64,000 bases of DNA, taken from Diphasiastrum complanatum. Lineage: Eukaryota; Streptophyta; Lycopodiopsida; Lycopodiales; Lycopodiaceae. Position numbers and translations under genes: made by a program. The stretch covers positions 34,010,361-34,074,360 of the forward strand of contig CM055106.1 in the NCBI GenBank assembly GCA_029204225.1, in the 5' to 3' direction. The notes under the pieces are model-generated. The model did not search any database, had not been told where the DNA came from, and was given only the letters and a program-made list of their open reading frames with translations. Shown here in pieces: positions 3,657-64,000 of this stretch (positions are counted from its first letter, which is position 1; every line of letters begins with the position of its first letter).

Positions 3657-4823
3657 TGTTGGCTGATTCTGACGAATCCCCAAGATACTCAGACAGAGCA
3701 ACTCAAGAGCACCTCTCACCTTAGACTGAGGAAGTCTCTGAGAAGGCGAGACTAATGAAGACTGAGAGCCAAGTATGAGAGCCGAGAAATACTAGCTAGG
3801 AGAGACATGCAAGAATTGTGTAAGCCTCATGGTGAATCCCGGAAGATGGAATGACCATGTAGGAACTAGTATTTCTAAGAAAATGTAATAAATGCAAGTA
3901 GACCTCTCTTAAAGAAAGTAGAGTGAGCCACCTTTTGATGGTGACCTCTAGTGGAGAGCAATATTCCACTTGTAATTTGTGAAATGTGGAAATTCCACTA
4001 GGATGCCACCTAAGGAGCTCTCTTGCTTATTTAAAAGGCTCCCTCTTTGTGAAGAGGAGCTTTTTGCATTGTATCTACTCCATGCTTAATAAGAAGATTT
4101 TCCAAGAGTTTGATGCTACACTAAGCTCCTTGATCATGATGGTTTTCTTGAGTGATGCCCCTATGATCATGCCCTTCCATTCATATTATGTGTGGTTGTG
4201 GATTTAGAGTGGATTAGTTTTCTTGCTTTCCTAGTTGTGGATTAGATTTCTTGTTTTCTTGTGGATTAATGTAGGAGCCAGCATTCAAGTAAACTAAAGA
4301 GGCTAGAAATGTGGCATAAATCTTGCATATTCTCTAACATTCTAGTTCTTGATGTTCTTGGGATGTCCAAGAATCAAAAGACTGGTTAGTTTCTTGATTC
4401 TTAGACTTCTAACATGTTGTAGATTAGTTCTTGTTTTTTGTTTATCAGCTTATACAAATGTAGCTCAGTTTAGTGTAGTGTAGGATCTGATTTCAATCCG
4501 TTTTTAGAGTAAGTAGCAGTAGAAACTACTGAACATTCATTGGTTTGCATGCTGATCCATGAATGAGCATTCTTGGCTTGCATCCTATGTAGAATGTAAG
4601 TGCATTCAAGAGTGATGTCCTCGAGTAGTCCTCTGACAGGCAGGAAAAAAAAAATTTATACTACAAAGTTATTCAGTCTGTTTGTACCTGGCCAGGGCAT
4701 TGTAACACATAAAAAACAGTCAAGTAATGCCCAAACGAGCCTGGTAACAGACAAGAAATAGATCTGTAGGCAAGAAGCAAAAAAGTAAACAACATGTCCT
4801 TTGGAGCAGGGGATCTGTCAACA
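3657..4823 (+). repeat. Left LTR of the gag-only element
   Basis: About 1.17 kb, starting TGTTGGCTGATTC and ending CTGTCAACA, near-identical to 9128-10282. It contains a TATA-like stretch (CTTATTTAAAAGG near 4026-4038) about 370 bases in, the likely LTR promoter. Parts of its centre are shared with LTR relics at 20215-20850 and 24156-24570, showing one LTR family at four places. Confidence 0.92.
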
Positions 4824-5119: not shown

Positions 5120-5740
5120 ATCTTGACCGACGCAACGCAGGTGCATAAAAAAAATAATTTAAAATCTCAACTGGAGCTCACGATCACATCTCAACCGGAG
5201 CTCCAGCTCAAATCTCAACCGGAGCTCATGCTCACATCTCAACCGGAGCCCAATTCACATCTCAACCGGAGCTCTCAGTAAAATCTCAACCGGAGCCCAT
5301 GCTCACATCTCAACCGGAGCTCTTAGTAAAATCTCAACCGGAGCTCACGCTCACATCTCGATTGAAGTGCCCGTTGAGATCTCGACTGAAGTGCTCCCTG
5401 AAATCTCGACCAAAGCGCTCGATGGAATCTCAACCAAAGCATCCGTTGAAGTCTCAACCGAAGTGTCCGTTGAAGTCTCAGCCGAAGTGCTCGCTCAGAT
5501 CTCGACCGAAGCCAAATTGCTCGTTGAAATCTCGACCGAAGCCAAAGTGCCCATTCAGATCTCGACCGAAGCCGAAGTGATCTCGACCGGAGCCAAAGCG
5601 CCCGTTCAAATCTCAATCGGAACCGAAGGTAGCGATCAAATCTTGACCGGAGGGATTCAATCAGATCTCAACCGAAGCAATAAGGTCAAAGCTCGACCAG
5701 AGCAATTAACACCCATCTCGACCGGACCATACCTTTTGAT
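5120..5740 (+). repeat. Minisatellite in the leader: degenerate 15- to 24-bp units of CTCAACCGGAGCT type
   Basis: A run of units built on ATCTCAACCGGAGCTC, drifting rightwards into ATCTCGACCGAAGCC. Units recur about every 15-24 bases for about 600 bases between the left LTR and the gag of the gag-only element. Open frames on both strands here are by-products of the repeat (Ser/Arg/Lys/Pro-rich periodic peptides), not genes. Position in the untranslated leader suggests an RNA-level or neutral role; function unknown. Confidence 0.85.
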
Positions 5741-9127: not shown

Positions 9128-10282
9128 TGTTGGCTGATTCTGACGAATCCCCAAGATACTCGGACAGAGCAACTCAAGAGCACCTCTCACCTTAGATCAA
9201 GGAGGTCTCTGAGAAGACGAGACTAATGAAGACTGAGAGCCGAGTATAAGAGCCAAGAAATACTAGCTAGGAAAGACATGCAAGAACTATGTAAGCCTCA
9301 TGGTGAATCCCGAAAGATGGAATGACCATGTAGGAACTAGTATTTCTAAGCAAATGTAATAAATGAGTAGACCCCTCTTAAAGAAAGTAGAGTGAGCCAC
9401 CTTTTGATGGTGATCTCTAGTGGAGAGCAATATTCCACTTGTAATTTGTGAAATGTGGAAATTCCACTAGGATGCCACCTAAGGAGCTCTCTTGCTTATT
9501 TAAGAGACTCCCTCTTTGTGAAGAGGAGCTTTTTGCATTGTATCTACTCCATGCTTAATAAGAAGATTTTCCAAGAGTTTGATGCTACACTAAGCTCCTT
9601 GATCATGATTGTTTTCTTGAGTGATGCCCCTATGATCATGCCCTTCCATTCATATTGTGTGTGGTTGTGGATTTAGAGTGGATTAGTTTTCTTGCTTTCC
9701 TAGTTGTGGATTAGATTTCTTGTTTTCTTGTGGATTAATGTAGGAGCCAGCATTCAAGTAAACTAAAGAGGCTAGAAATGTGACATAAATCTTGCATATT
9801 CTCTAACATTCTAGTTCTTGATGTTCTTGGATTGTCCAAGAATCAAAAGACTGGTTAGTTTCTTGATTCTTAGACTTCTAACATTTTGTAGATTAGTTCT
9901 TGTTTCTTATTTATCAGTTTATGCAAATGTATCTCAGTTTAGTGTAGTGTAGGATCTGATTTCAATCCGCTTTTAGAGTAAGTAACAGTAGAAACTACTG
10001 AACGTTCATTGGTTTGCATGCTGATCTATGAATGAGCGTTCTTGGCTTGCATCCTATGTATAATGTAAGTGCATTCAAGAGTGACATCCCTGAGTAGTCC
10101 TCTGACAGGCAGGACAAAGAAAATCTATACTACAGCTCATTTCTGCCTGGTCTGGGCATTGTAACAAATAAGAAACAGTCAAGTAATGCCCAAACGAGCC
10201 TGGTAACAGGCAAGAAATAGATCTGTAAGCAAGAAGCAGAAAAGTAAACAACAGGTCCTCTGGAGCAGGGGATCTGTCAATA
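9128..10282 (+). repeat. Right LTR of the gag-only element
   Basis: Closely similar to 3657-4823 over its whole length, starting TGTTGGCTGATTC, and followed directly by the CTTCT duplication. It contains the matching TATA-like stretch near 9495-9507. Confidence 0.92.
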
Positions 10283-10968
10283 CTTCTACAGAAGCCGAAT
10301 ATAAAGCGTTGAGTTCTGCTACCCAAGAAGCTGTTTGGCTACGTAAGTTGTTATGTGAGATTGGCATGAAGCAAGTTAATCCTACTATTATTTTCTGTGA
10401 CAGTCAAAGTGGAATACAATTGGCTAAGAATCAAATCTTTCACGCAAAGACAAAACATATTGAGATAAAATATCACTATGTGCGTGAGAAGCAACAATCT
10501 GAAGATATAAATATTGTACATTGTTCTACGTTATTACAAGTTGCTGATATATTTATGAAAGCTATAAGTAAAGAAAAGTTTGAGACTTTTAGATCCAAAC
10601 TTGGCTTAGATCTGGTTATGTAAAAAGCCTTTACTTGTAATACTATCATGGAGATATGTTCCATGAATAGAGTAAACTCTAAAATAAAGAGAGACGTTGA
10701 TCATCAAGGGAGAGAGTTAAAATAGCAATGATCAACTTATACAGTGCTTTCTTATTTTGATGGCACCACGTGTGCTTAGTTCTAGAGTTATCGGGCCATC
10801 TTTCTTTTACGAGCCCTTTGAGTGCTTTTAAGCAACTTATCTTTGTACTTACTTATTAGTTGAATATACAGTTTGTGGAGAGCAATTCTGTTGCCTTGTT
10901 TTGTTGCACTTGACGTTGTGCTGTGGTGATTGATCCGGTCGGGTGTTAGAATTGTGTTTCTTAACTGC
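10283..10968 (+). mobile_element. Copia element 1 resumed: end of RNase H, polypurine tract and probable 3' LTR remnant
   Basis: Immediately after the target duplication the Copia RNase H resumes at EAEYKALSSATQEAVWLRKL and runs through the ADIFMKA block to a stop near 10623. A polypurine tract (CAAGGGAGAGAG) lies near 10705-10716, as expected just before a 3' LTR. The following ~250 bases are probably the LTR, but its end is not defined because the next element abuts near 10968. Confidence 0.8.
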
Positions 10969-11615
10969 TTCCAAATTTGAACTCTCTATAAAAATACAGC
11001 AAACAAACAATAAATGTGAGTGATCAACATTTGCTTGCATCTCTCCTCCTCCTTTGTCCTTTGTTGCCATGTATCCACCATGATACTGCATGAATGAGCC
11101 TCCATCTTCATCTTGCCATAAGATGCCATCATACCTTGATGACTTGACCATGAATGAGTCACATAATGAACCTCCAATAGCTTCATTTCCATCATCAAAA
11201 CCAGCCAATAATGATAGTACAAATCCAACATCAAAACAATGCTCACCAATGTAGCTAGTTTTACCATATCTTGACAATTTGCACACATCCACGTGAAATT
11301 GCTCAAACATGAGACGGAACAAGTAAAGTAAACTTGAACAGCACTTCCTTGTTGCTCCTTTGACCATACTTGAGTCTTCAATATGCTGCAAAAATAAAAA
11401 CATAACATCTTTGCCAATTACCTCTCCTTTGATGCTCTTGACTAGTTCCAAATTGCCACCTTCCCTTTTGACTAGTAGAAGCGCTTTGAGATAAACCTCT
11501 TGATCTTCAACTTGACCATCAAAGTCATTGAAAAATTTTTGTCTTCTTGATTTTACAGCAAGATAACATCCATCCACTTGCATAGCTCCATGTACACAAG
11601 AAGATCCTCCAAAAG
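10968..11615 (-). other. Unrelated segment in place of Copia RT (copy 1, partial)
   Basis: After the LEYRALMKSGT block, where Copia RT normally begins, the open frame goes on into sequence with no RT motif. It shows CVHGAMQVDGCYL, KREGGNLELVK and HCFDVGFVL. The same segment, longer, is at 51272-52345 in the second copy, so it was acquired before the family spread. I do not recognise the protein. It could be a captured host gene fragment or fortuitously open DNA. Confidence 0.75.
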
Positions 11616-13934
11616 ATGTTCCACTCTTCATAAGAGCTCGATACTCAAGATCCATTGCTTGGATCCGCTCCTCTTCTTTCCTTGCTTGATCTACACTTGT
11701 AGGCTCATCCAAAGAGGTTAGGAAAGCAACATAATTTCTAGAAACTACTTGCTTACCCTTTTGATCATATGTGAGCCTTGAAGGTACTTGTCTTTCTCTT
11801 GATGTTCTCCTTGGCTTTTGACTTGATGAAGGTCCATCATCATCACCATCCAAAGTAGGATCCTTCTCATCAACATCAAGAATGTTAGATCCATCCACTT
11901 TACCATCAATCATGCTTGAAGACACCTTTGGAATGTTCCCCTCATAAAAAATGACATCTCTACCAGCAATTACTTTGTTAGTAGAAGGAATGTAAACCTT
12001 GTAGGCTTTACTCACCTCACTATATCCAACAAAAATACCTCTTCTTGAAGATGGATCCTCCTTGGTCCTATCATCAAGAGTAATGTTGACATAGCATGTG
12101 CATCCAAAGGTTCTTAGAAAGTTGACACTCGGCCTCCTCTTGAATAGCATCTCAAAAGGTGTCCTTCCATCCAAAATAGCACTCGGCCACCTATTGCACA
12201 AGAAATTGGCACACAACAAAGCTTGATCCCAAAATGGTTTGTCAAGATTAGCACTTGAACTCATAGCTTTAGCACTTTCACATAAAGTCCTATTCTTCCT
12301 TTTAGCACTTTCACATAAAGTCCTATTCTTCCTTGCATTCTTGAACTTGACAAGACATCATACACTTCATCCTTGTTCTTTAGTAGATAGATCCAACAAA
12401 ATCTACTAAAATCATCAATGAATGTTACATACATCTTAGCTCCACTATTGCTAATTGTAGTAAATCCATGAATATCCAAATGTACAAGCTGAAAAGGCTT
12501 TGTAGATCTAGTATAAGGAAAGACAAAGCATAAGACTCACAAACATGCTTGTCATTACTTAAGGAACTTGGAAGACCAATCACAACCTTCTTCCTTGCCA
12601 TTACCTCCAATGACTTGAAGTTGAGGTGTCCCATCCTTTTGTGCTAAACCTCTTGAATAGAAATTTGATCCCTTGCAACACATCCAATTTGGTTAGCAAT
12701 AACACAAGCATCAAGTTTGAACAACTTCCCTTGCCTTTTACCTTTTCCAATCAAGACATCCTTCCTTTTGATCAAACAAGGATCTCCATCAAACTCCACC
12801 TTGAGGCCGTTACTTAGCATTTGACACTAAGCAAATTATTGTTAATAAATGGAATAAACAATACATCCTCCAAATGAACATTCCTATTTGTAGAGAGAGA
12901 AATAGGAATTGTGCCAATCCCTTTGATTGCACACTCACCATCATTGGCCATGTAGATCACCCTCTTGTTGTCTTCATATGCCAACAAAGAAGTGAAGTAC
13001 TCTTTGTGAAAGGTCATGTGTGAACTTGCTCCACTATCAATCCACCAAGGATCTAGATCTCCATCATTAGCAAGCATACATGAAGACATCACAAAAGCAT
13101 CATCATTTGCATCTTGAACATCCAAACCATCCTCATCAAGAGTAAGATTACCTTGCTTGTCTCCTTGATCTCTCTTCTTCTTGTAGCACTCACTTGCAAA
13201 GTGTCCTTTGATGCCACAATAGAAGCACTTGAGCTTTGATCTATCCTTCTTTTTGCCACTTGAAGAAGCATCCACTTGATCTTGCCCTTTAGACCACTTG
13301 CTTTTGGTTTTGCCTTTGAATTTGCCCTTTGTGAACATAGCATCCTCTTGAAACCTCTTTCTTGAAGCCTATATTCCTCATTGATCAAGATCTCTTGAAG
13401 ATCCATCAAACTTGGAAAAGTCTTTTGAATAGCAATACTTTGAACAATGTTAGCATGAGCATCCAACAAGCCATTAAGAATCACTTGAATAAGCTCTACT
13501 TCCTTAATGCTTTCATCAATGCAAGCTTACTCATCATTCAATGCTTTCATTCTCAAAACAAAAGTACTTGGACTTTCTTCATTCTTTGGCAAACAAGAAA
13601 AGATTTGCCTTCTTAGAGTCAACACTCTAGAAGTAGACTTGGATTCATAAAGCTTCTTCAATGAATTCCAAGCTTCCAAAGATGATGTGCACTTACCAAC
13701 TTCTTTGAGAAATTCATTGGTAACATTCATCTTTATCATGTGTAGAGCCTTCTTATCCCTCTTGTCATACCTCAATTGATCTTGTTGTGTTGCTGGTCTC
13801 TCCTCCAAACCTACAACAATATCCAAAACATCATTCATCTCAAGAAGTGACTCCATCCTCACTTTCCATAATGCATAGTTACTTGAGGTAAGCCTATCAT
13901 TGGCTTCCAACATGACTCCAATTGAGGTTGCCAT
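11616..13934 (-). pseudogene. Copia gag, protease and integrase (RT-replaced family, copy 1)
   Basis: The gag starts at 13934 (MATSIGVMLEANDRL), with the SNYALWKVRMESLL block typical of Copia gag. A CCHC knuckle (CFYCGIKGHFASEC) lies near 13180-13225, the protease WWIDSGASSHM near 13020-13055, and pre-integrase and integrase parts at lower coordinates. Relative to copy 2 some integrase sequence is missing. Fossil, several breaks. Confidence 0.85.
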
Positions 13935-14520
13935 GTAGCAATGACCTGATCTTCTCTTTCAACCTGATTAAATGCACAAATCACTCCTTTGAACAACAAT
14001 AAATGCTTTCAAAAGAAATCACTAAGATTTGAAACTATCTCACAAATTCTCTTCTAGCACTTATCCAAGCAAATCAATACATAGAATCATGAAATCTTGA
14101 CCAACCTATGATCTATCCTCAATCTAATGACTTTTGCCACTTTCTAAGATTGAAACACACTCAAATGAAGTCCAGTAACCTCACTATCTAGAGATCCAGT
14201 CAAAATTAGGGTTTTGACAAAATCACAAAAAATTGACTATTCCAAATCTACATGCAAATGCTGAAAATTTGATATGCAATCTATAAGCCACTACTTAGGC
14301 TGATCGAATGATCCAAAAGTCGGCCAAATCCAGTATGTGAATTCAAAAATTGGAATTGAACAATTATATTGACCTATTTAGTGTTTTGATCTACAAAAGG
14401 TCCAATCTACAAAAGCAAAAAATTCGATTTTGGTGTAGAATCCTCTCTAGCATGCTCTAGACTTGATATCTTCAGCAAATCATTGATTGATCTGATTTTC
14501 TCCTTCATAACCTGAAACAA

Positions 14521-14534
14521 AAGCTCTGATACCA
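14521..14534 (-). other. Primer-binding site (initiator Met-tRNA type)
   Basis: Read on the minus strand, TGGTATCAGAGC directly follows the LTR's last base. This matches the 3' end of plant initiator Met-tRNA, the usual Copia primer, and fixes both the LTR boundary and the orientation. Confidence 0.9.
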
Positions 14535-15181
14535 TGTGAAAGATTTCAGGTCCTTAAGATCCAATCTACTTGAATGATCTTTGGTTAGAAAGAGAAATAC
14601 ATTACCAATCTCACCAATGTAGAAAAATCAGCATCTACACGCAAATTGAGATGCAAACACCAATAGAACTTGATCAAACTTGAATGAAATGATTATGTAC
14701 TATTGCATTCCGTACAAAACCAGAAAGCTATTGTATTTCATAGGTGTGGATCCAAAAATAACAAATATAGATCATTCTACACATAGAATTGCAAGCAATC
14801 ACCAAGATAGTGCACCAATGGATAGTAGAACCCAAGAGAACCATGTATAAGCATGAAATGAGATAGAGAAGAGAGAAGATGACTCTCTCCACGAGTTACA
14901 TCCTTTTATAGCAGGTCCAAACCCTATTTGGCCACTTGGCTTTCCCACCAAAATGCTAACCCTACTAATTTTGGGTCTAGATTCAATGTACCCAACTATT
15001 CAAATTGAATCTATTCAAACTCGCACTAGATTTTCCACACTTTCAAAAAGTGTTTATTCAAATGAAATTTAGACTAATGAACTCTGAAAAGTCAACCTCT
15101 AAGTCTAAAACAAGTTTTGGCCTCAATATGTCAAATATGGAAATATTGCAAAATGTGATGAAACTAGTTGAATTTTTCACA
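14535..15181 (-). repeat. 5' LTR of the RT-replaced Copia, copy 1
   Basis: 647 bases beginning TGTGAAAGATT and ending TTTTTCACA (+ strand view). It nearly matches 50043-50692 base for base. The + strand right end abuts unrelated sequence. Confidence 0.9.
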
Positions 15182-50042: not shown

Positions 50043-50692
50043 TGTGAAAGATTTCAGATCCTTAAGATCCAATCTACTTGAATGATCTTTGGTTAGAAAG
50101 AGAAATACACTACCAATTTCACCAATGTAGAAAAATCAGCATCTACACACAATTTGAGATGCAAACACTCATAGAACTTGATCAAACTTAAATGAAATGA
50201 TTATGTACTGTTGTTGTCCGTAAAAAACCGGCAAGCTACTATATTTCACACGTGTGGATCCAAAAATAACAAATATAGATCATTCTACACATAGAATTGC
50301 AAGCAATCACCAAAATAGTGCACCAATGGATAGTAGAACCCAAGAGAACCATGTATAAGCATGAAATGAGATAGAGAAGAGAGAAGATAACTCTCTCCAT
50401 GAGTTACATCCTTTTATAGCAGGTCCAAACCCTATTTGGCCACTTGGCTTTCCCACCAAAATGCTAACCCTACCAATTTTGGGTCTAGATTCAATGTACC
50501 CAACTTATTCAAATTGAATCTACTCAAACTCACATTGTATCTTTCCCACACTTTCAAAAAGTGTTTATTCAAATGAAATTTAGACTAATGAACTTTGAAA
50601 AGTCAACCTCTATGTCTAAAATAAGTTTTGGCCTCAATATGCCAAATATGGAAATATTGCAAAATGTGATGAAACTAGTTGAATCTTTCACA
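50043..50692 (-). repeat. 3' LTR, RT-replaced Copia copy 2
   Basis: 650 bases with a perfect 12-bp terminal inverted repeat (TGTGAAAGATTT-type start, GAATCTTTCACA end, allowing one mismatch). Near-identical to 14535-15181. Confidence 0.92.
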
Positions 50693-51272
50693 CTCCCTCT
50701 TCAACTAGCTTTAGCATAGACTTTGATAATACTCCAAGTGAAGTCCTATGCTTCATGAACAAGTCCTTTCCCAATGCTTTGGTGAAGATATCAGCTACAC
50801 ATTCCCTTGAAGACACATGTTGAAGCTCCACCTCCTTTGCAATGACTCGCTCCCTCACAAAATGATATTGTATCTCAATATGCTTGCTCCTAGCATGAAA
50901 GATAGGATTGGATGCCATTCTTTGGGCTGATTGATTGTCACAAAAGATGATTGGGCTCTCTGAAAAATCCATCAAGTGAAGATCCTTGATCATCCTTTTG
51001 ATCCATACCATCTCCTTTGTGCAATGTGTAAGAGCTTTGTACTCGGCCTCACTAGATGACAATGAGATAGTGGCTTGTTTCTTTGACATCCATGATATAG
51101 CTCCATCACCTATGAAAATATAATAAGAACTAATGGATTTCCTATCCATTACATCTCCAGCATAGTCCAAATCTGAAAATCCAAAAAGATTAGGTGATGA
51201 TCCCTCATACCATATGCCAAAATCTCGAGTTCCAATGATGTACCTCAAAACTCGCTTTCCTAGCTTCCAATG
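50688..51272 (-). pseudogene. Copia RNase H (RT-replaced family, copy 2)
   Basis: On the minus strand LGKRVLRYIIGTRDFGIWYE, the SDLDYAGD catalytic block, ISLSSSEAEYKAL, IIFCDNQSAQ and HARSKHIEI are all clear, ending at LKLVEEGV beside the polypurine tract. RNase H removes template RNA in the family. Clear Copia sequence begins near 51272, where the substituted segment ends. Confidence 0.9.
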
Positions 51273-52345
51273 CTCATAGCATAGTTTTTGCCAATAGAAC
51301 TTTGATCCATCATAAGAATGATCTTCTTCCTAAGAATAGATCTCCTTTCAATGATCATGTAATGCTCAAAATAGAAACAACCATAATTGATATAGAGAAT
51401 AGTGTCCACTTGGGATGCTTCACTATTTCTTACATCAATTTTACATGTTAAAATGTGACTAGAACATGAAGAATCAAATATAATGTAAATGAAATGATTC
51501 CACCATGCTTCCAACTCTGAACTCTCTGGAAAACTACAGCAAACAAACAATAAATGTGAGTGATCAACTTTTGCTTGCATGTCTCCTCCTTCTTTGTCCT
51601 TTGTTGCCTTGTATCCACCATGATACTCCATGAATGAGCCTCCATCTTCATCTTGCCACAAGAAACCATCAAACCTTGGAAATCCATGAGTAGGTGAATA
51701 CATAAATGATGCAAATCTAGCACCACATGACTCCATAAACCAAGTAGTTTGCACTAGTCCATCTTCAAGATCTACGTGACACAAGAAAATGACCATGAAT
51801 TCACCAAAAATTGACAATCTCCAAGTATTGGCACCAAGTAGCTCGACACTTGAGAACTTAGCCATGGATGAGTGACATAATGAACCTCAAATAGCTTCAT
51901 TTCCATCAGCAAAATCAGCCAAGAATGCTAGTACAAATCCAACATCAAAACAATGCTCACCAATGCAGCTAGTTTTACCATATCTTGACAATTTGCACAC
52001 ATCCACATGAAATTGCTCAAACATGAGATAGAACAAGTAAAGTAAACTTGAACAACACTTCCTTGCTGCTCCTTTGACCTTACTTGAGTCTTCAATATGC
52101 TTCAAAAAAAGATCCATAACACCTTTGCCAATTACCTCTTCTTTGATGTTCTTGACTAGCTCCAAATTGCCACCTTCCCTTTTGACTAGTTGAAGCGCTT
52201 TGAGATCAACTTCTTGATCTTCAACTTGATCATCAAAGTCATTGAACAAACTTTGTTTTCCAGATCCAATACTTGATTTTACATCAAGATAACATCCATC
52301 CACTTGCATAGCTCCATGTACACAAGAAGATCTTCCAAAAGATGT
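51272..52345 (-). other. Segment replacing Copia RT (copy 2, full length)
   Basis: It lies between the LMKSGT block (where RT normally starts) and the HWKLGKRVLRY block (after RT). No RT motif is present, not even the YVDD region. Read in the element's sense it is mostly open: KREGGNLELVK, ARKCCSSLLYLFYLMFEQFH, GEHCFDVGFVLAFL, MEYHGGYKATKDKEGG, HSHLLFVCC. No known domain recognised. Openness in the element's frame suggests a captured coding fragment. About 1.07 kb replaces roughly 1.1-1.2 kb of RT. Confidence 0.8.
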
Positions 52346-54699
52346 TCCACTCTTCATAAGAGATCGATACTCAAGATCCATTGGTTGGATCCACTCCTCT
52401 TCTTTCCTTGCTCGATCTACACTTGTAGGATCATCCAAAGAGGTTAGGAAAGCAACATAATTTCCAGAAACTACTTGCTTACCCTTTTGATCATATGTGA
52501 GCCTTGAAGGTACTTGTCTTTCTCTTGATGTTCTCCTTGGCTTTTGACTTGATGAAGGTCCATCATCATCACCATCCAAAGTAGGATCCTTCTCATCAAC
52601 ATCAAGAATGCTAGATCCATCCACTTTACCATCAATCATGCTTGAAGACACCTTTGGAATGTTTCTCTCATAAAAAATGACATCTCTACCAACAATCACT
52701 TTGTTAGTAGAAGGAATGTAAACCTTGTAGGCTTTACTCACCTCACTATATCCAACAAAAATATCTCTTCTTGAAGATGGATCCTCCTTGGTACTATCAT
52801 CAAGAGTAATGTTGACATAGCATGTGCATCCAAAGGTTCTTAGAAAGTTGACACTCGGCCTCCTCTTGAATAGCATCTCAAAAGGTGTCCTTCCATCCAA
52901 AATAGCACTCGGCCACCTATTGCACAAGAAATTGGCACACAACAAAGCTTGATCCCAAAATGGTTTGTCAAGATTAGCACTTAACCTCATAGCTTTAGCA
53001 CTTTCACATAAAGTCCTATTCTTCCTTTCAGCCACTCCATTTTGTTGTGGGGTCCTTGATGTTGTATACTCCCTCTTGATCCCATGCTCATCACAAAAGG
53101 CCTTGAACTTGTTAGATATGTACTCACCACCATTGTCACCTCTCAAGCACTTGATCTTTGTGGAGAATGGGTTCTCCCTTGCATTCTTGAACTTGACAAA
53201 GACATCATACACTTCATCCTTGCTCTTTAGTAGATAGATCCAACAAAATCTACTAAAATCATCAATGAATGTTACATACATCTTAGCTCCACTATTGCTA
53301 ATTGTAGTAAATCCATGAATATCCGAATGTACAAGTTGAAAAGGCTTTGTAAATCTAGAAATAGATCTAGTATAAGGTAGTCTATGTGACTTAGACAAAG
53401 CACAAGACTCACAAACATGCTTGTCATTACTTAAGGAACTTGGAAGACCAATCACAACCTTCTTCCTTGCCATTACCTCCAATGACTTGAAGTTGAGGTG
53501 TCCCATCCTTTTGTGCCAAACCTCTTGAATAGAAATTTGCTCCCTTGCAACACATCCAACTTGGTTAGCAATAACACAAGCATCAAGTTTGAACAACTTC
53601 CCTTTCCTTTTACCTTTTCCAATCAAGACATCCTTCCTTTTGATCAAACAAGCATCTCCATCAAACTCCACCTTGAGGCCCTTACTTAGCATTTGACTCA
53701 CACTAAGCAAATTCTTGGTAATAGATGGAATAAACAAGACATCCTCCAAATGAACATTCCTATTTGTAGAGAGAGAAATAGGAATTGTGCCAATCCCTTT
53801 GATTGCACACTCACCATCATTGGCCATGTAGATCACCCTCTTGTCATCTCCATATGCCAACAAAGAAGTGAAGTACTCTTTGTGAAAGGTCATGTGTGAA
53901 CTTGCTCCACTATCAATCCACCAAGGATGTAGATCTCCATCATTAGCAAGCATACATGAAGACATCAAAAAAAGCATCATCATTTGCATCTTGCACATCC
54001 AAACCATCCTCATCAAGAGTAAGATTACCTTGCTTGTCTCCTTGATCTCTCTTCTTCTTGTAGCACTCACTTGCAAAGTGTCCTTTGATGTCACAATATA
54101 AGCACTTGAGCTTTGATCTATCCTTCTTTTTTGCCACTTGAAGAAGCATCCACTTGATCTTGCCCTTTAGACCACTTGCTTGTGGTTTTGCCCTTGAATT
54201 TGCCCTTTGTGAACATAGCATCCTCTTGAAGTGTCGATGTAGATCCACCTCTTGCTTGAAGCCTATATTCCTCATTGATCAAGATCTCTTGAAGATCCAT
54301 CAGACTTGGCAAAGTCTTTTGAATAGCAATACTTTGAACAATGTTAGTATGAGCATCCAACAAGCCATTAAGAATCACTTGAATAAGCTCTCCTTCCTTA
54401 ATGCTTTCATCTATGCAAGCTAACTCATCATTCAATGCTTTCATTCTCAAAACAAAAGTACTTGGACTTTCTTCATTCTTTTGCAAACAAGAAAAGATTT
54501 GTCTTCTTAGAGTCAACACTCTAGAAGTAGACTTGGATTCATAAAGCTTCTTCAATGAATTCCAAGCTTCCAAAGATGATGTGCACTTACCAACTTCCTT
54601 GAGAAGTTCATTGGTAACATTCACCCTTATCATGTGTAGAGCTTTCTTGGCCCTCTTGTCATACCTCAATTGATCTTGTTGTGTTGCTGGTCTCTCCTA
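52346..54699 (-). pseudogene. Copia gag (partial), protease and integrase (RT-replaced family, copy 2)
   Basis: The knuckle CLYCDIKGHFASEC lies near 54060-54105. The protease WWIDSGASSHM (near 53895-53930), pre-integrase VWHKRMGHLNFKSL and integrase blocks HSDIHGFTT, CLRGDNGGEYIS and QQNGVAERKNRT follow in order. The C-terminal GYSEVSKAYKVYIPST is also present. The integrase D, D and E blocks are all visible. The gag beginning is missing. Confidence 0.9.
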
Positions 54700-57252: not shown

Positions 57253-57859
57253 CTAAGATCTTTGCACAACAAGCTACAAAAGCTAGAAATGGCAAAACAT
57301 CCTAATGCTACCTTTGATACACATGAACTTGACAAAGCATTCAAGAGACAAAAGAAACTAATAAAAGGTACTGATGATAGCCAAAAACAGCATTATACCA
57401 GCCCTACAACAGCAGCTTACCACTTTTGGAAACCTCTTAAGATCATACACAAAAGCTTGAAGACAATACACAAAGCAATGCTCTCAATGGAGGAAGAAAC
57501 TGTGACAATGATCTATTGATCTCTCTCAACAATACAATAAGTTTCTCCAACCTGTTCTCCACAAATTTCAGTCTACTATAGGTGAGAGAGATGACTCTCT
57601 CTCCTCTCTCTAGAACTTAGGACCCAATTTTAGGGCAGCAGTAGCCTAAAATAGCCAATTTTGGCCTATATGTCCAAATAACATGATTTTGGTGTCATTT
57701 CAAAGGTCCTGAAGTTTGGGACTTCTTTAATATGAAATATATACTAGAATAAAAGTATCTAGGTCTCTTTCACATGTGTAAAAGGTTAGATCCAAAACTA
57801 TGTACAAAAACTGCCAATTTAGGCCTCAAACTAGCTAGGAAATGTTGACAATTTTCACA
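57253..57859 (-). repeat. Partial 3' LTR of a Copia copy
   Basis: Related to 58751-59405 but lacking about the first 57 bases (+ strand view). It ends GACAATTTTCACA beside a polypurine tract (57860-57872). Confidence 0.8.
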
Positions 57860-58750
57860 CTCCCTCTTCAACAGATGATAGTTTCAACATAGATCTTGAA
57901 CACATTCCAAGATTAGATCTATGCTTATAATACAGGTCCTTTTCCAATGGTTTGGTGAAGATATCAGCCACACACTCCAATGAAGAGACATGTTGAAGCT
58001 CCACCTCTTTGGCAATGACTTGATCCCTCACAAAGTGATGAGCAATCTCAATGTGCTTGTTTCTAGCATGGAAAACTGGATTGGTTGCCAAGCTTTGGGC
58101 TGAAAGGTTGTCACAATAGATGATTGGTGTCTTCTTAGAATCCAACAAGTGAAGATCCAATAGCATCCTCTTTATCCAAAGCATCTCCTTGGTGCATGTT
58201 GTCAATGCCTTATACTCGGCCTCGGTGGAAGATAGAGAGATAGTAGGTTGCTTCTTTGATAGCCATGAGATAGCTCCCTCTCCAAGATATATTGCAAAGA
58301 CACTTGTTTACTTACTATCCATTTGATCACCTGCAAAATCTGAATCTGAGAAACCACAAAGGTTAGGTGAAGATCCTTCATACAAGATGCCAAAATCTCT
58401 AGATCCCGAGAGGTATCTTAGTACTCTCTTTCCTAGCTTCCAATGAGCCTCACTGGGATCTTGCATGAATTGACTTAGTTTACCAACCACATAGCTTAGA
58501 TCAGGTCTTGTGATGGTTAACCAAATAAGAGATCCTATGAGCTTTCTGTAGAGAGTAATGTCCTTGAAGGATCTTTCATTACCTCTTATAGATAGCTTTA
58601 CATTTGATTCCATAGGAGTAAAAACTACTTTGCAATTTTCCATATGAAATTTTTTAGAATAGAGCTAGAATACTTCTCTTGACAAATGAAAGTAGAATTA
58701 TAAGTCCTAACAATCTTTATTCCTAAGATATAGTGAAGCTTACCAAGATC
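57855..58750 (-). mobile_element. Copia copy, 3' part: RT end and RNase H, interrupted by the intact Copia
   Basis: On the minus strand: the RT end (VKLSIRGNERSFKDITLYRK, LIGSLIWLTITRPDLSYVVG), RNase H (CGFSDSDFAGDQMD), CDNLSAQSLATNPVFHARNK and the end LSSVEEGV. It is closely similar to the whole-looking element to its right, which inserted at 58750/58751 inside this copy's RT region. Its 5' portion would lie beyond the window. A few breaks. Confidence 0.88.
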
Positions 58751-59405
58751 TGTGAAAAATACAGATCCTAAGTGGATCTAAACTCCAAGATCATTGGCTT
58801 GAATGCTTACACTCCAAACTACATAAGCTAGGAATTGGCAACACATTCTATGCTACCTAGAATGCAAAGAACTTGATCAAAAAGCATTTATCACAAATGG
58901 AAACTTCCATAAACATCAAGTGCGGCCCAAAATAGCATTATACAGTCCATAATACATCAGCCTATCACTTTTGGAAATCACCTAAGATCATACACAATAG
59001 CTTGAAGACAATACACACAACAATGCTCTCAATGGAGGAAGAAACAATGACAATGATCTATTGATCTCAATGAAGCATACAAAAGGTTTCTCCAACCTGT
59101 TTTCCACGACTTCCCTACTATTTATGGATGAGGAAGATGACTCTCTCTCCTCTCTCTAGAAGGTACTTGACCCTAGATATTCCCTATATAGGAAAAATAG
59201 CTAAAAATGGCTTATATGACCAAAATACATCAAAATGGTCTCATTTTGAAGGGTATGAAGTTTGACACTTCATCATACTGAAAAAATACAGTAAATAAAA
59301 ACATTGTGGCCTGGTTCACACGTGTGAAACTCCAGAACCAAAACTATTTACAATTTTAGCCAATTTAGGCCTCAAACTAGCTAGGAAATGTTGACAATTT
59401 TCACA
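58751..59405 (-). repeat. 3' LTR of the whole-looking Copia
   Basis: 655 bases from TGTGAAAAATAC to GACAATTTTCACA (+ strand view). The outer host bases are AGATC; the second copy of the target duplication would be outside the window. Confidence 0.88.
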
Positions 59406-62400
59406 CTCCCTCTTCAACATTGGATGCTAGTTTCAACATAGTCTTTGAGCACATTCCAAGATTAGATCTATGCATTAAATATAGGTCCTTTCCCAATGGT
59501 TTGGTGAAGATATCAGCCACACACTCCTTTGAAGAGACATGTTGAAGCTCCACCTCTTTGGCAATGACTTGATCTCTCACAAAATGGTGAGCAATCTCAA
59601 TGTGCTTGCTCCTTGCATGAAAAATAGGATTGCTTGCCAAGCTTTGGGCTGAAAGGTTATCACAAAGTATGATTGGAGTCTTCTCTGGTTCCAGCAAGTG
59701 AAGATCCAATAACATCCTCTTGATCCAAAGAATCTCCTTGGTGCATGTTGTTAATGCCTTGTACTCGGCTTCGGTGGAAGATAGAGAGATAGTTGGTTGC
59801 TTCTTTGATAGCCATGAGACCACTCCATCTCCAAGATAGATTGCAAAGGCACTTGTAGACTTCCTATCCATTTGATCACCTGCAAAATCTGAATCTGAAA
59901 ATCCACAAAGGTTAGGTGTAGTACCTCCATACAAGATGCCAAAATCTCTAGATCCCGAGATGTATCTAAGTACTCTCTTTCCTAGCTTCCAATGAGCCTC
60001 ACTAGGATCTTGCATAAATTGACTTAGTTTACCAACCACAAAGCTTAGATCAGGTCTTGTGATGGTTAACCATATAAGAGATCCTATTAGCTTTCTATAG
60101 AGAGTAATGTCCTTGAAGGATCTTTCATTACTTCTTGTAGTTAGCTTTACATTTGATTCCATAGGAGTAGAAACAACTTTACAATCTTCCATATGAAACC
60201 TTTTTAGAATAGAGTTAACATACTTTTCTTGACATATGAATGTAGATTTAGAAGTTCTAATAATCTCTATTCCTAAGATATAATGAAGTTTACCAAGATC
60301 TTGAATTTCAAACTCTCTTTTGAGTGCCATCTTGATTTCATCTATATCTAGATTGTTACCACCACTTAAGATAATGTCATCAACATAGATCAAAAGTAAA
60401 GTGATATCATTTTCATTCAATCTAAAGTAGAGAGAATGATCATACTCACTCATAACAAAGTTTTGAGAAAGTAAGAAGGAATTGAGCTTAGCATACCAAC
60501 TCCTTGGTGCTTGCTTTAGCCCATACAAACTCTTTTGGAGATAGCACACATGATTAGGCTCATCATGTGAAACATAGCCCTCGGGTTGCTCCATGTAAAT
60601 ATCTTCTTCAAGATCACCATTCAAGAAGGCATTAGTAACATCCATTTGCCACATATCCCAATCATAAAGAGTTGCAAGAGAGATTAGGATTCGAATAGTT
60701 ACCATCTTTGCCACGGGTGCAAAGGTCTCATCATAGTCAATACCATATTCTTGAGCATACCCCTTTGCCACCAACCTTGCCTTGTACTTGTTGATTGATC
60801 CATCTTGATTTGTCTTGATCTTGAAGATCCACTTACAACCAATTGCCTTCTTGTCCTTTGGAAGCTTTACCAACCTCCATGTGTTGCTTTTGATGAGTGC
60901 TTGATGCTCATGATCCATGGCTTGGATCCATTCCTTCTTTTGAATTGCTTCACCTACACAAGTTGGTTCATCAAAAGAGGTAAGAAAAGCAAGGTTAGAG
61001 TTGTCCACCACTTGCTTTCCTTTTTCATCATAGGTTAGCCTTGATGGCTTAGCCCTTTGCCTTTGAGTCTTCCTTGAAGTTTGCTTTGGAGTGGCATCTC
61101 CATCTTCATCCAAGACATCTTGCACATCATGATGATTAGTAGGCACATCAACATCAACATCAACAACATTGGAAACATTCTCTTCATGAAAGATGACATC
61201 CCTACTTATGACAACTTTCTTTGTAGAAGGAATGTACACTTTGTAAGCCTTGCTTACTTCACTATAGCCAACAAACACACCCTTCTTTGATGAAGGATCT
61301 TCTTTAGTTCTATCATCAAGTGTGATATTGACAAAACATGTACATCCAAAGATCCTACAATGCTTGACACTCGGCCTTCTACCATAAAGAACCTCATGAG
61401 GAGTTTTACCATCCAAGGAAGCACTTGTCCATCTATTACATAGATAGTTAGCACATGCTAAAGCTTCCCCCCAAAAAGACTTAGCAAGATTAGCATGTAG
61501 TCTCATTGCCTTGGCACATTCACAAAGGGTTCTATTCTTCCTCTCGGCCACTCCATTCTGTTGTGGAGTCCTAGGACTAGACATCTCCCTCTTAATCCCA
61601 TGTGCTATACAAAAGTCTTTGAACCTATTTGAGGTGTATTCCCCTCCATTATCTGATCTTAAGCATTTGATCTTTGTATTGAATTGGTTTTCCATTTCAT
61701 TCTTGAACTTGACAAATGCAGCAAACACTTCATCCTTACTTTTAAGAAGATAGATCCAAGTATACCTACTAAAGTCATCAATGAAAGTTGCATACATCTT
61801 TGCCCCACCATTGCTAGTTGTACTAGAAGAATGAATATCAGAATGCACAAGTTGAAAAGCTTCTTTAGATCTAGAAGTAGATCTAGAATAAGCAAGTCTA
61901 TGAGATTTGGACAAGGCACAATGTTCACAAACACTATTGTTTGCAACAAGACTTTTAGGGAGACCAAGAACAAGCTCTTTCTTTGCCATTACCTCCAAAG
62001 ATTTGAAGTTGGGATGGCCCAACCTCTTGTGCCAAACTTCTTGGTTTGTCAATTGCTCCCTAGCCATACATCCTTCATGATTAGAGATCACACATGCATC
62101 AAGCTTGAAAAGTTTACCATGCCTCCTACCTTGAGCAATCAAGGATCCACATTTACTTATCAAACATGCATCTCCAATGAACTCCACATCAAGTCCTTTG
62201 TCAATCATTTGACTTACACTAAGCAAATTCTTAGTGATTGAAGGAATGTACAAAACATTTTCAAGATTTGCTTTCCTATTTGTTGAAAGGGAAATAGGAA
62301 TAGTGCCTATGCCTTTGATGTCACATTGACCATCATTTGCAGTGTAGATGATGTTACCTTCTCCCTCATAAGACAATAAGGATGTAAAGTATTCCTTATG

Positions 62401-63354
62401 TCTTGTCATGTGAGATGAGGCTCCACTATCAATCCACCAAGGATCATTATCATCTATGTTGGCTAACAAACTTGAAGTCATAACAAGTGATTCACATGTG
62501 TTATGTTCTTCCTCATCTATTGTAAGATTTCCTTGCCTCTCTCCTTGCTCTCTTTTCTTCTTATAACATTCATTTGCAAAATGACCTTTTATCCCACAAT
62601 AAAAGCACTTGAACTTTGACTTATTGTTCTTAGTAGAAGAGGAAGAGGAAGAGTGATCATCATGATCAAAGTTACCACCTTTGGACCATTTCCCTTTGCC
62701 TTTACCTTTGCCCTTGAATTTGCCTTTTGTGAAGAAAGCCTCTTCACCTCCACCTTGCAAGGATGCACCATCAAGCTTTGATTGCAACCTATGTTCTTCA
62801 GCCAATAAGATTTCTTGCAAGTCAACCACACTTGGCAAGACTCTTTGAATGGCAAAACTTTGCACAAGGTTAGCATGTTCATTTAGCAAACCATTCAACA
62901 TAACTTGGACTATTTCACCATCTTTTATGTTCTCATCAATGCATGCTAAATCATCACTTAGGGACTTAACTCTCAAGATAAATGCATGAGCACTTTCACC
63001 CTCTCTTTGCCTACTAGAAAATATTTGTCTCCTTAGGGTCAATACCCTAGATGTGGACTTTGATTCAAAGAGCTTCTTTAAGGCATTCCATGCCTCACTT
63101 GCACTTTGACACTTTCCAACTTCCTTGAGAAGTTCATTTGTAACATTCATTTTAATGATATGAAGAGCCCTTTTGGCCTTCTTATCAAACCTTTGTTGCT
63201 CTTGAAGTGTGAGAGGTCTCTCTTCAATTTCTGCAACTATGTCCATGAGTTCATTCAACTCAAGTAAGGACTCCATCCTCACTTTCCAAGTAGAGTAGTT
63301 TGATGAACTCAACCTTTCACTAGACTCTAGCATGATCCCACCATTGGAAGCCAT
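59401..63354 (-). CDS. Copia gag-pol polyprotein, 1317 residues, apparently intact
   Basis: One open frame of normal plant Copia length. Gag comes first (SNYSTWKVRMESLL near residue 18), then a Lys/Gly-rich linker and the CCHC knuckle CFYCGIKGHFANEC at residues 250-263. The protease DSGA is at 309-312. The pre-integrase HKRLGH zinc region starts at residue 442. Integrase catalytic residues are D near 505, D568 (SDNGGEY) and E near 604 (NGVAERKN). RT starts near residue 818 (WRLVKLPKDKKAIGCKWIF) with YVDD at 990-993. RNase H follows, with D1156 in SDSDFAGD and EAEY near 1198, ending SNVEEGV. The start Met is supported by homology to the gag start at 13934. The product would act in cytoplasmic particles and then insert cDNA in the nucleus. 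Confidence 0.95.
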   Translation of the reverse strand: MASNGGIMLESSERLSSSNYSTWKVRMESLLELNELMDIVAEIEERPLTLQEQQRFDKKAKRALHIIKMNVTNELLKEVGKCQSASEAWNALKKLFESKSTSRVLTLRRQIFSSRQREGESAHAFILRVKSLSDDLACIDENIKDGEIVQVMLNGLLNEHANLVQSFAIQRVLPSVVDLQEILLAEEHRLQSKLDGASLQGGGEEAFFTKGKFKGKGKGKGKWSKGGNFDHDDHSSSSSSTKNNKSKFKCFYCGIKGHFANECYKKKREQGERQGNLTIDEEEHNTCESLVMTSSLLANIDDNDPWWIDSGASSHMTRHKEYFTSLLSYEGEGNIIYTANDGQCDIKGIGTIPISLSTNRKANLENVLYIPSITKNLLSVSQMIDKGLDVEFIGDACLISKCGSLIAQGRRHGKLFKLDACVISNHEGCMAREQLTNQEVWHKRLGHPNFKSLEVMAKKELVLGLPKSLVANNSVCEHCALSKSHRLAYSRSTSRSKEAFQLVHSDIHSSSTTSNGGAKMYATFIDDFSRYTWIYLLKSKDEVFAAFVKFKNEMENQFNTKIKCLRSDNGGEYTSNRFKDFCIAHGIKREMSSPRTPQQNGVAERKNRTLCECAKAMRLHANLAKSFWGEALACANYLCNRWTSASLDGKTPHEVLYGRRPSVKHCRIFGCTCFVNITLDDRTKEDPSSKKGVFVGYSEVSKAYKVYIPSTKKVVISRDVIFHEENVSNVVDVDVDVPTNHHDVQDVLDEDGDATPKQTSRKTQRQRAKPSRLTYDEKGKQVVDNSNLAFLTSFDEPTCVGEAIQKKEWIQAMDHEHQALIKSNTWRLVKLPKDKKAIGCKWIFKIKTNQDGSINKYKARLVAKGYAQEYGIDYDETFAPVAKMVTIRILISLATLYDWDMWQMDVTNAFLNGDLEEDIYMEQPEGYVSHDEPNHVCYLQKSLYGLKQAPRSWYAKLNSFLLSQNFVMSEYDHSLYFRLNENDITLLLIYVDDIILSGGNNLDIDEIKMALKREFEIQDLGKLHYILGIEIIRTSKSTFICQEKYVNSILKRFHMEDCKVVSTPMESNVKLTTRSNERSFKDITLYRKLIGSLIWLTITRPDLSFVVGKLSQFMQDPSEAHWKLGKRVLRYISGSRDFGILYGGTTPNLCGFSDSDFAGDQMDRKSTSAFAIYLGDGVVSWLSKKQPTISLSSTEAEYKALTTCTKEILWIKRMLLDLHLLEPEKTPIILCDNLSAQSLASNPIFHARSKHIEIAHHFVRDQVIAKEVELQHVSSKECVADIFTKPLGKDLYLMHRSNLGMCSKTMLKLASNVEEGV

Positions 63355-64000
63355 GATTCTAATGTTTCTTCAACTTTTAGGTTCTGTCCTAAAGCACTTA
63401 GCACTCACTTTTCTCCAACAAATGATAGATAAAGAGATCTATGAAGATTTAGGACCCTAAAACACTTCTATCTTGAACCTAGATGGTTTCCAAGCATAGA
63501 AAGGAAGATTGAAACACATGCAACACTTTGCACACACTAACAATGGATTACAAAATCAAACCAACCTGAACACACTCTTGCTTAAGCTCTCAAACTTTCC
63601 AGCAAGTGACCAAATCAAGTTATGGTGTGAAGAGTTACTTGCATTCTTAGAAAATACCCAAAACTAGGATGCCAAGATTACCTAGTAATGAACAAACTTG
63701 ATCAACATATGATCAACACACTAAGATATTGATTCAACCTGTAAAACCACATGTAAACCACACTTCTAAAAGTTTATAAACTCCAGCAAGTGATAAATAC
63801 AAGATTTAGAGGTGAATGAATGAGCACACTTAGTGAATCACAAGACTAGCTTCACTATCTTGTCAAATCTTGGTGTTTAGATGTAGATCTAAGATCACTT
63901 CACATGAGAATGTTCCTCAACCTGTTAAGAACCTGAAAACACACTTGCATAATGGTTAACACCTTCCAGCAAATGCTCCAATCAAATTACATAAGGAGAG
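63355..64000 (-). other. 5' leader of the whole-looking Copia
   Basis: No gene. A-rich sequence between gag and the expected primer site, with repeated short AACCTG segments (for example near 63565, 63738 and 63920). Similar in length to the 600-base leader of the copy at 13935-14520. Confidence 0.6.

Follow-up and report, generated by a model that had tools for sequence, protein, structure and literature searches.

Combining alignment, profile searches and genome-wide junction counts in the 1.74-Gb genome of Diphasiastrum complanatum, we describe a high-copy family of Ty1/Copia retrotransposons in which the reverse transcriptase (RT) is replaced by a 1,064-bp segment of non-RT sequence, hereafter X, with gag, protease (PR) and integrase (IN) before it and RNase H and the long terminal repeat (LTR) after it. 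This non-autonomous family was most probably made by recombination between retroelements and would since have been copied in trans: a high-copy element that abandoned reverse transcription and kept its integrase. Since an RT-bearing (RT+) sister family, relatives of the donor module and the junctions can all be read in one genome, the assembly of this parasite of a parasite can be traced stepwise.

Segment X in the focal element

The window, the whole stretch of 64,000 nucleotides analysed (C15:34010361-34074360), contains the following features:

50043..50692, minus strand: 3' LTR of the focal copy, running TGTGAAAGATT...ATCTTTCACA
50688..51329, minus strand: RNase H open frame, in a frame different from that of gag-PR-IN-X
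51278..52341, minus strand: segment X in place of RT, bounded by the divergence points against RT+ sister loci
51887..51889, minus strand: stop codon within X, private to the focal copy among 20 aligned rows
51890..54166, minus strand: open frame with protease/BBD, pre-integrase, integrase core and SH3, in frame into X
54118..54696, minus strand: open frame of gag (Retrotran_gag_2), which the focal copy carries in another frame; truncated at ~54699
10968..15181, minus strand: second, more diverged copy, with 5' LTR (14535-15181), leader and gag-PR-IN with small deletions
59401..63369, minus strand: related autonomous element with an unbroken 1322-aa gag-PR-IN-RT-RNaseH frame; RT at 60013-60885

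In the focal element (50043-54699), which is oriented on the minus strand, Pfam matches within the open frames correspond to a copia-type gag, Pol_BBD, gag_pre-integrase, rve and SH3, all upstream of X. The frames of 51272-52345 gave zero Pfam matches, so that the RT-family homology sought there by profile search, RVT_2 included, was not found. As the same scan detects RVT_2 in the intact relative of the window (59401-63369; gag_2, BBD, rve, SH3 and RVT_2 in order, the last with E 3.1e-78), an ordinary RT would have been detected. Together with this Pfam result, alignment against RT+ sister copies confirmed the original prediction of an RT swapped for a ~1.07-kb non-RT segment, the RT that X replaces being about 870 bp long, and set the divergence points at 51278 and 52341, at most 6 bp from the bounds first proposed (51272-52345). 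On the left, homology with the RT+ sisters ends after ..GGAACAT (GGAACAT/CTTTTGG versus GGAACAT/GGAGATTGG, the slash marking the switch point); on the right, it resumes at ..AGGAGCATTGG (..TATGCT/AGGAGCATTGG versus ..CTAGTG/AGGAGCATTGG). RNase H and the LTR had been described as resuming after the segment where expected: their order and the junction hold, but RNase H sits in another frame.

In the second window copy (10968-15181), X is represented by its 5' part, which extends to about 10968, and neither RNase H nor a 3' LTR was seen. This copy does carry the same replacement, as had been predicted, X being partial, but in the 300 bp compared the LTRs described as near-identical have 93% identity. 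Neither window copy has both LTRs: the focal one has a 3' LTR only, its 5' LTR being absent, and the second a 5' LTR only. Elsewhere in the window, a partial RT-RNaseH copy (about 57855-58664) adjoins the intact relative, and a 24-bp tandem repeat (ATCTCAACCGGAGCTC..) at 5135-5515 is flanked by repeats (3897-4196 and 9366-9665) that are 98% identical and perhaps form an LTR pair.

Copies and insertions of the X family

The initial genome search with X gave 4,754 candidates, the best 40 of which were scored and, the focal copy itself aside, are 97-98% identical to the focal X. Twenty of the 39 non-focal scored copies were fetched, a sample biased to well-preserved copies because it was drawn from the 40 best-scoring matches. 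All 20 present the sequence X, RNase H, 3' LTR, with parts missing in L015, L017 and L020, and IN sequence lies upstream of X in 19 (the exception being L027); in L022, IN and X are 358 bp apart. The proposal that the RT replacement predates the spread of the family is supported.

Eight fetched copies carry a pair of LTR matches, each 600 bp or longer. The PBS TGGTATCAGAGC and a purine-rich PPT are common to all eight, their LTR pairs (type TG..CA) are 96.6-99.2% identical, and six of them (not L010 and L028) are bordered by perfect 5-bp target-site duplications (TSDs) that differ from one another. Given the differing TSDs, segmental duplication was rejected as the cause of the copies, and the separate insertions originally predicted are supported by these six family members, the window copies themselves having one LTR each. 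Across the genome, the IN/X junction was counted at 1339 places and the X/RNase H junction at 996 (at most 3 mismatches; reversed-pattern controls of 0 each). Three same-strand IN/X junctions spaced by ~4.13 kb (C4:43132940, 43137070 and 43141198) resemble a tandem array of X elements.

The order gag-PR-IN-(RT)-RNaseH, the copia-type gag, the TG..CA LTRs, the 5-bp TSDs, the PBS and the PPT place the family within Ty1/Copia. Its scanned frames contain rve and no RVT_2, yet it has amplified to the 1339 IN/X places, in agreement with the predicted non-autonomous element that retains its own integrase.

Reading frames of X and RNase H

The segment had also been described as largely open and reading in the element's sense, and both features are supported. 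In a frame alignment of 20 rows (19 copies plus the focal one; L010, which has a stop in X, was dropped by the length filter), the X frame is free of stops in 15, among them L018, with a 1-nt deletion in X, and L027, with no IN upstream; the remaining five have one stop each. Stops amount to 14 in 16 rows for gag-PR-IN and 5 in 20 rows for X, which per codon is of the same order. In L025, where the open frame reaches 1175 codons, X has 0 stops in 358 codons versus 12-32 in its other five frames, and a Markov model of the same composition as this X gave a mean of 22.6 stops and a minimum of 13 (200 runs).

The X frame continues that of gag-PR-IN, and this main frame terminates just past X. RNase H occupies a different open frame, whose overlap with the main frame is 13 nt; frameshift expression was rejected as no slippery heptamer was seen by eye in this overlap, so RNase H is probably not produced as a fusion. 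Its resumption out of frame suggests that RT, and probably RNase H, are supplied in trans. RNase H variants among X-family copies have an N/S ratio of 0.43-0.76, and a ratio below 1, unexpected for an untranslated frame, counts against RNase H being unmade; judged from the frames, the RNase H enzyme of the X family is nevertheless probably supplied in trans as well.

An RT-bearing sister family as putative helper

The IN/RT junction of the sister family was found at 2126 genome places (at most 3 mismatches; reversed control 0), and eight RT+ loci were examined (L041-L048). An IN 96.0-97.5% identical to the focal one runs directly into RT in L045-L048, IN identities are 93-95% in L042 and 86-93% in L043, and L044 is a leader-RT fusion. 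In L041, RT is present, RNase H and the 3' LTR are 97.0% and 95.3% identical to those of the focal copy, and the match to the IN piece is confined to its final 138 bp (88%), next to unrelated sequence; the first 1019 bases of L041 (sense), unrelated sequence at the IN position, have the look of a candidate DNA transposon. L041 was dropped as an IN-less, RT+ complementary partner, IN directly preceding RT in 4 of 5 further loci (L045-L048). The full LTR, compared in two RT+ loci, is 95% identical in L041 and 71% in the more distant L043. The RT+ sister is a plausible helper of the X family, whose mobilisation by it is predicted; L029/L040 and L031-L034 were rejected as helpers, their IN identity being 77-84%. 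In L039, another RT-bearing relative, the IN-RT segment is inverted inside the element.

X in other LTR elements

The sequence upstream of L010 belongs to a different LTR element, which closes with an X-like stretch abutting PPT and LTR; a 297-bp query from it had 100% identity in all 40 scored of 1,210 candidates. This Y family (L010:1-950, L049-L053) is a very young gag-only element with the layout LTR, gag, X/Y-like frame. Its gag shares 71% aa identity with that of the intact relative, its frame, which spans two adjacent loci and measures about 1,050 codons between stops, ends just before the PPT, and Pfam found no PR, IN, RT or RNase H in the two parts of Y scanned.

A pattern requiring the end of X near a PPT matched 7 genome places, all of which were read (L054-L060), and in these elements X is the last internal module, directly before the PPT. 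The near-identical L055 and L056 are organised as IN-X-PPT-LTR, with an X at 89% and the same IN/X junction as the focal family; L058 combines a Y-like part with a whole X (88%) in a single 565-codon frame; L059 and L060 contain a shortened X, and L054 and L057 the X end alone. The stop is supplied by the first LTR bases in L054, L058 and L059 (VEEGV then stop, ..GTGTGA), which is how the L058 frame ends; L055/L056 carry frameshifts and L060 two stops. CKIDVRNSEAS and like blocks are common to X and Y and are conserved at the DNA level too. In both L058 and Y, X is preceded by a stretch that resembles RT (31% across 122-130 aa, with E values of 2e-5 to 7e-6 in small sets). This stretch has lost the YVDD motif and lies below Pfam detection, and by its similarity X follows a degenerate RT in L058 and the Y family alike.

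Selection on X and Y

NG86 dN/dS controls gave 0.17 for gag (Y against the intact relative), 0.15 for gag-PR-IN (X family against the intact relative), 0.24 and 0.30 for gag-PR of L054, and 0.54 (interval 0.24-2.07; 57 codons) for the IN end of L055. Between X and Y the ratio was 0.73 in the N-terminal part, 1.12 in the C-terminal part and 0.88 overall, the middle being not alignable, and it was 1.08 for X against the gag-fused part of Y. L058 yielded 1.02 (0.69-1.68) against X, 0.78 (0.59-1.09) against Y and 0.84 for the upstream L058-Y part; L060 yielded 0.91 against X and 0.82 against L058, L059 0.95 against X, L055 1.38 (0.75-2.89) against X, and L054 0.71 and 1.20 against Y. For three X-Y parts, the estimates were 1.11, 1.48 and 1.29 with LWL85 and 1.06, 0.42 and 0.44 with YN00. 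All three codon positions of X/Y are about equally conserved. The RT-like parts of L058 and Y have dN/dS of 0.34 and 0.45 against true RT, as expected if they were formerly RT.

Within the X family, variants found in at least 3 copies number 14 N to 4 S in X (0.94) and 8 N to 7 S in gag-PR-IN (0.31), both small numbers, and singleton variants have N/S ratios of 1.03 and 0.81, respectively. Neutral drift predicted 4.7 stops for X-L058, 3.8 for upstream Y-L058 and 11.4 for L058-Y, where the distance rests partly on uncertain alignment; none was observed in any of the three (P of zero stops 0.009, 0.014 and 0 of 3000 runs). Indels of a length other than a multiple of three were 1 of 2 for L058-X (by reading, at the very end), 0 of 4 for upstream L058-Y, 3 of 4 for L058-Y, 1 of 3 each for L059-X and L060-X, and 5 of 5 for L056-X. 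Frames kept open across diverged families, with most dN/dS values at 0.7-1.4, hint at selection for openness and not for protein, but the YN00 estimates of 0.42-0.44 in two cases, the wide dN/dS intervals, the broken lineages, the frame-shifting indels and the N/S ratios of RNase H speak against openness-only selection.

Origin of X and alternative explanations

Searches of X against NCBIfam, PHROGs and PDB gave best E values between 0.059 and 1.8. No host-gene source of X was seen among the best 40 of thousands of genome candidates, and as 40 of these thousands were scored, there is room for a host source locus. A 61-bp stretch (X 899-959) aligns to RT with E 0.12, equalled by 1 of 200 shuffles (0 of 200 for the X of L055), and as a PR-IN model matches X equally weakly (E 0.015), this RT patch is suggestive at most; with no RVT_2 match and this single weak patch, X was rejected as a diverged RT.

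Capture of a host-gene fragment (transduction), first into an ancestral non-autonomous element and then passed on, would fit an X that is open, sense-oriented and in frame, and for the most part without similarity to gag, PR, IN, RT or RNase H. We regard it as unlikely: X and Y, wherever their surroundings were read, lie inside LTR elements, the codon-position pattern is flat with dN/dS near 1, Pfam gave no match, and NCBIfam, PHROGs and PDB gave none better than E 0.059. The original prediction of an unrelated captured (host) coding fragment is not supported, since X occurs also in L054-L060 and the Y family, after decayed RT in L058 and Y. Somewhat less probable still is that X represents no more than decay of the RT-RNase H region within one element lineage. 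The 61-bp patch and the RT-like stretches upstream in L058 and Y point that way, but neither RT nor RNase H similarity extends to the rest of X, collinearity between the patches is poor, the PR-IN model performs as well, and on either side of X the RT+ sister shows about 97% identity, so X did not decay in place.

Two further explanations concern the open frame. X/Y could encode an accessory protein of retroelements that evolves fast and in part by diversification (e.g. against host silencing), to which the maintained frame, NG86 values up to 1.12 in X-Y parts and of 1.20-1.38 in two comparisons with wide intervals, and the blocks found in both X and Y would correspond, and YN00 at 0.42-0.44 in two parts would even permit protein constraint; the about equally conserved codon positions, the conservation of the blocks in DNA too and the lack of a recognisable domain make this rather doubtful. 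The frame may also be open through youth alone, being open at capture with too little time to break, a minority possibility that draws on the 97-98% identity to the focal X of the best 40 scored copies and on the similar order of stops per codon in gag-PR-IN and X, but that is at odds with L058 and Y, open despite 11-35% divergence from X or each other.

Under recombination between retroelements, the reading that we favour, RNAs of an RT+ element and of an L055/L058-like element would have been co-packaged, and a double template switch during reverse transcription would have departed from the RT+ template where IN ends, copied X and returned at RNase H. Transcripts of the X family would give rise to Gag, PR and an X-fused IN, with RT and RNase H for their reverse transcription coming from the RT+ sister with almost the same LTR. 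Less firmly, selection might hold the frame open in X-bearing elements, the amino acids being of little import, perhaps because a premature stop would produce a lengthy 3' UTR and make the genomic mRNA a target of nonsense-mediated decay; with its stop just past X, the focal family has RNase H and the LTR as 3' UTR, a poor fit to decay avoidance. A broader picture, which we put forward tentatively as one possibility, is a swarm of recombining non-autonomous LTR elements in which selection would maintain an open frame as such, from gag to the PPT/LTR stop, X being a swappable "filler" cassette that here replaces RT, perhaps through mRNA protection or ribosome retention.

Comparison with known non-autonomous elements

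LARD and TRIM are LTR elements without coding capacity, and TR-GAG elements have LTRs and gag but no enzymes. The focal family was assigned to neither: the 1175-codon open frame of L025 sets it apart from LARD/TRIM, and its filing as TR-GAG was rejected. The Y family resembles TR-GAG, from which it differs by its ~1,050-codon frame, mostly X/Y module, ending just before the PPT. The layout of the focal family, with PR and IN of its own, RT absent and RNase H in a different frame, was not found in the open-access literature searched, including the available part of PMC3701649, and may still be published.

In wheat, as far as the available parts of the articles describe them, RLG_Sabrina, RLG_WHAM and non-autonomous RLC_Angela are high-copy families co-evolving with autonomous partners, and their LTRs were exchanged, possibly via template switching (PMC9744471). 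Sabrina and WHAM are without RT and INT coding sequence and the coding sequence of non-autonomous Angela is wholly degenerate, whereas the focal family has an open frame with a recognisable IN. Barley BARE2, according to the same part of that source, resembles the focal family in being a Copia element deprived of one function, for which it presumably relies on a sister family, but the function lost is GAG, and in the focal family RT is replaced by another module (PMC9744471). In the portion of PMC11302176 at hand, wheat RLG_Quinta is a non-autonomous element encoding GAG and a domain of unknown function, and its mobilisation is attributed to the autonomous partner RLG_Cereba, with conserved LTR ends, PBS and PPT, and template-switch recombination between lineages. 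The Y family, with gag and a non-enzymatic domain, fits this GAG plus DUF layout (PMC11302176), whereas the focal family, which keeps PR and IN, does not. If the open but unconstrained frame is true, it would offer a reason why abundant non-autonomous plant retrotransposons carry domains of unknown function (e.g. DUF1 of RLG_Quinta) and would provide a testable tie between retroelement success and mRNA surveillance. RLG_Quinta is a Gypsy element without integrase, and the focal family a Copia element in which PR and IN are retained but RT and the RNase H frame are lost; as far as these sources describe them, its layout is unlike that of the gag-only partners of wheat (PMC11302176, PMC9744471).
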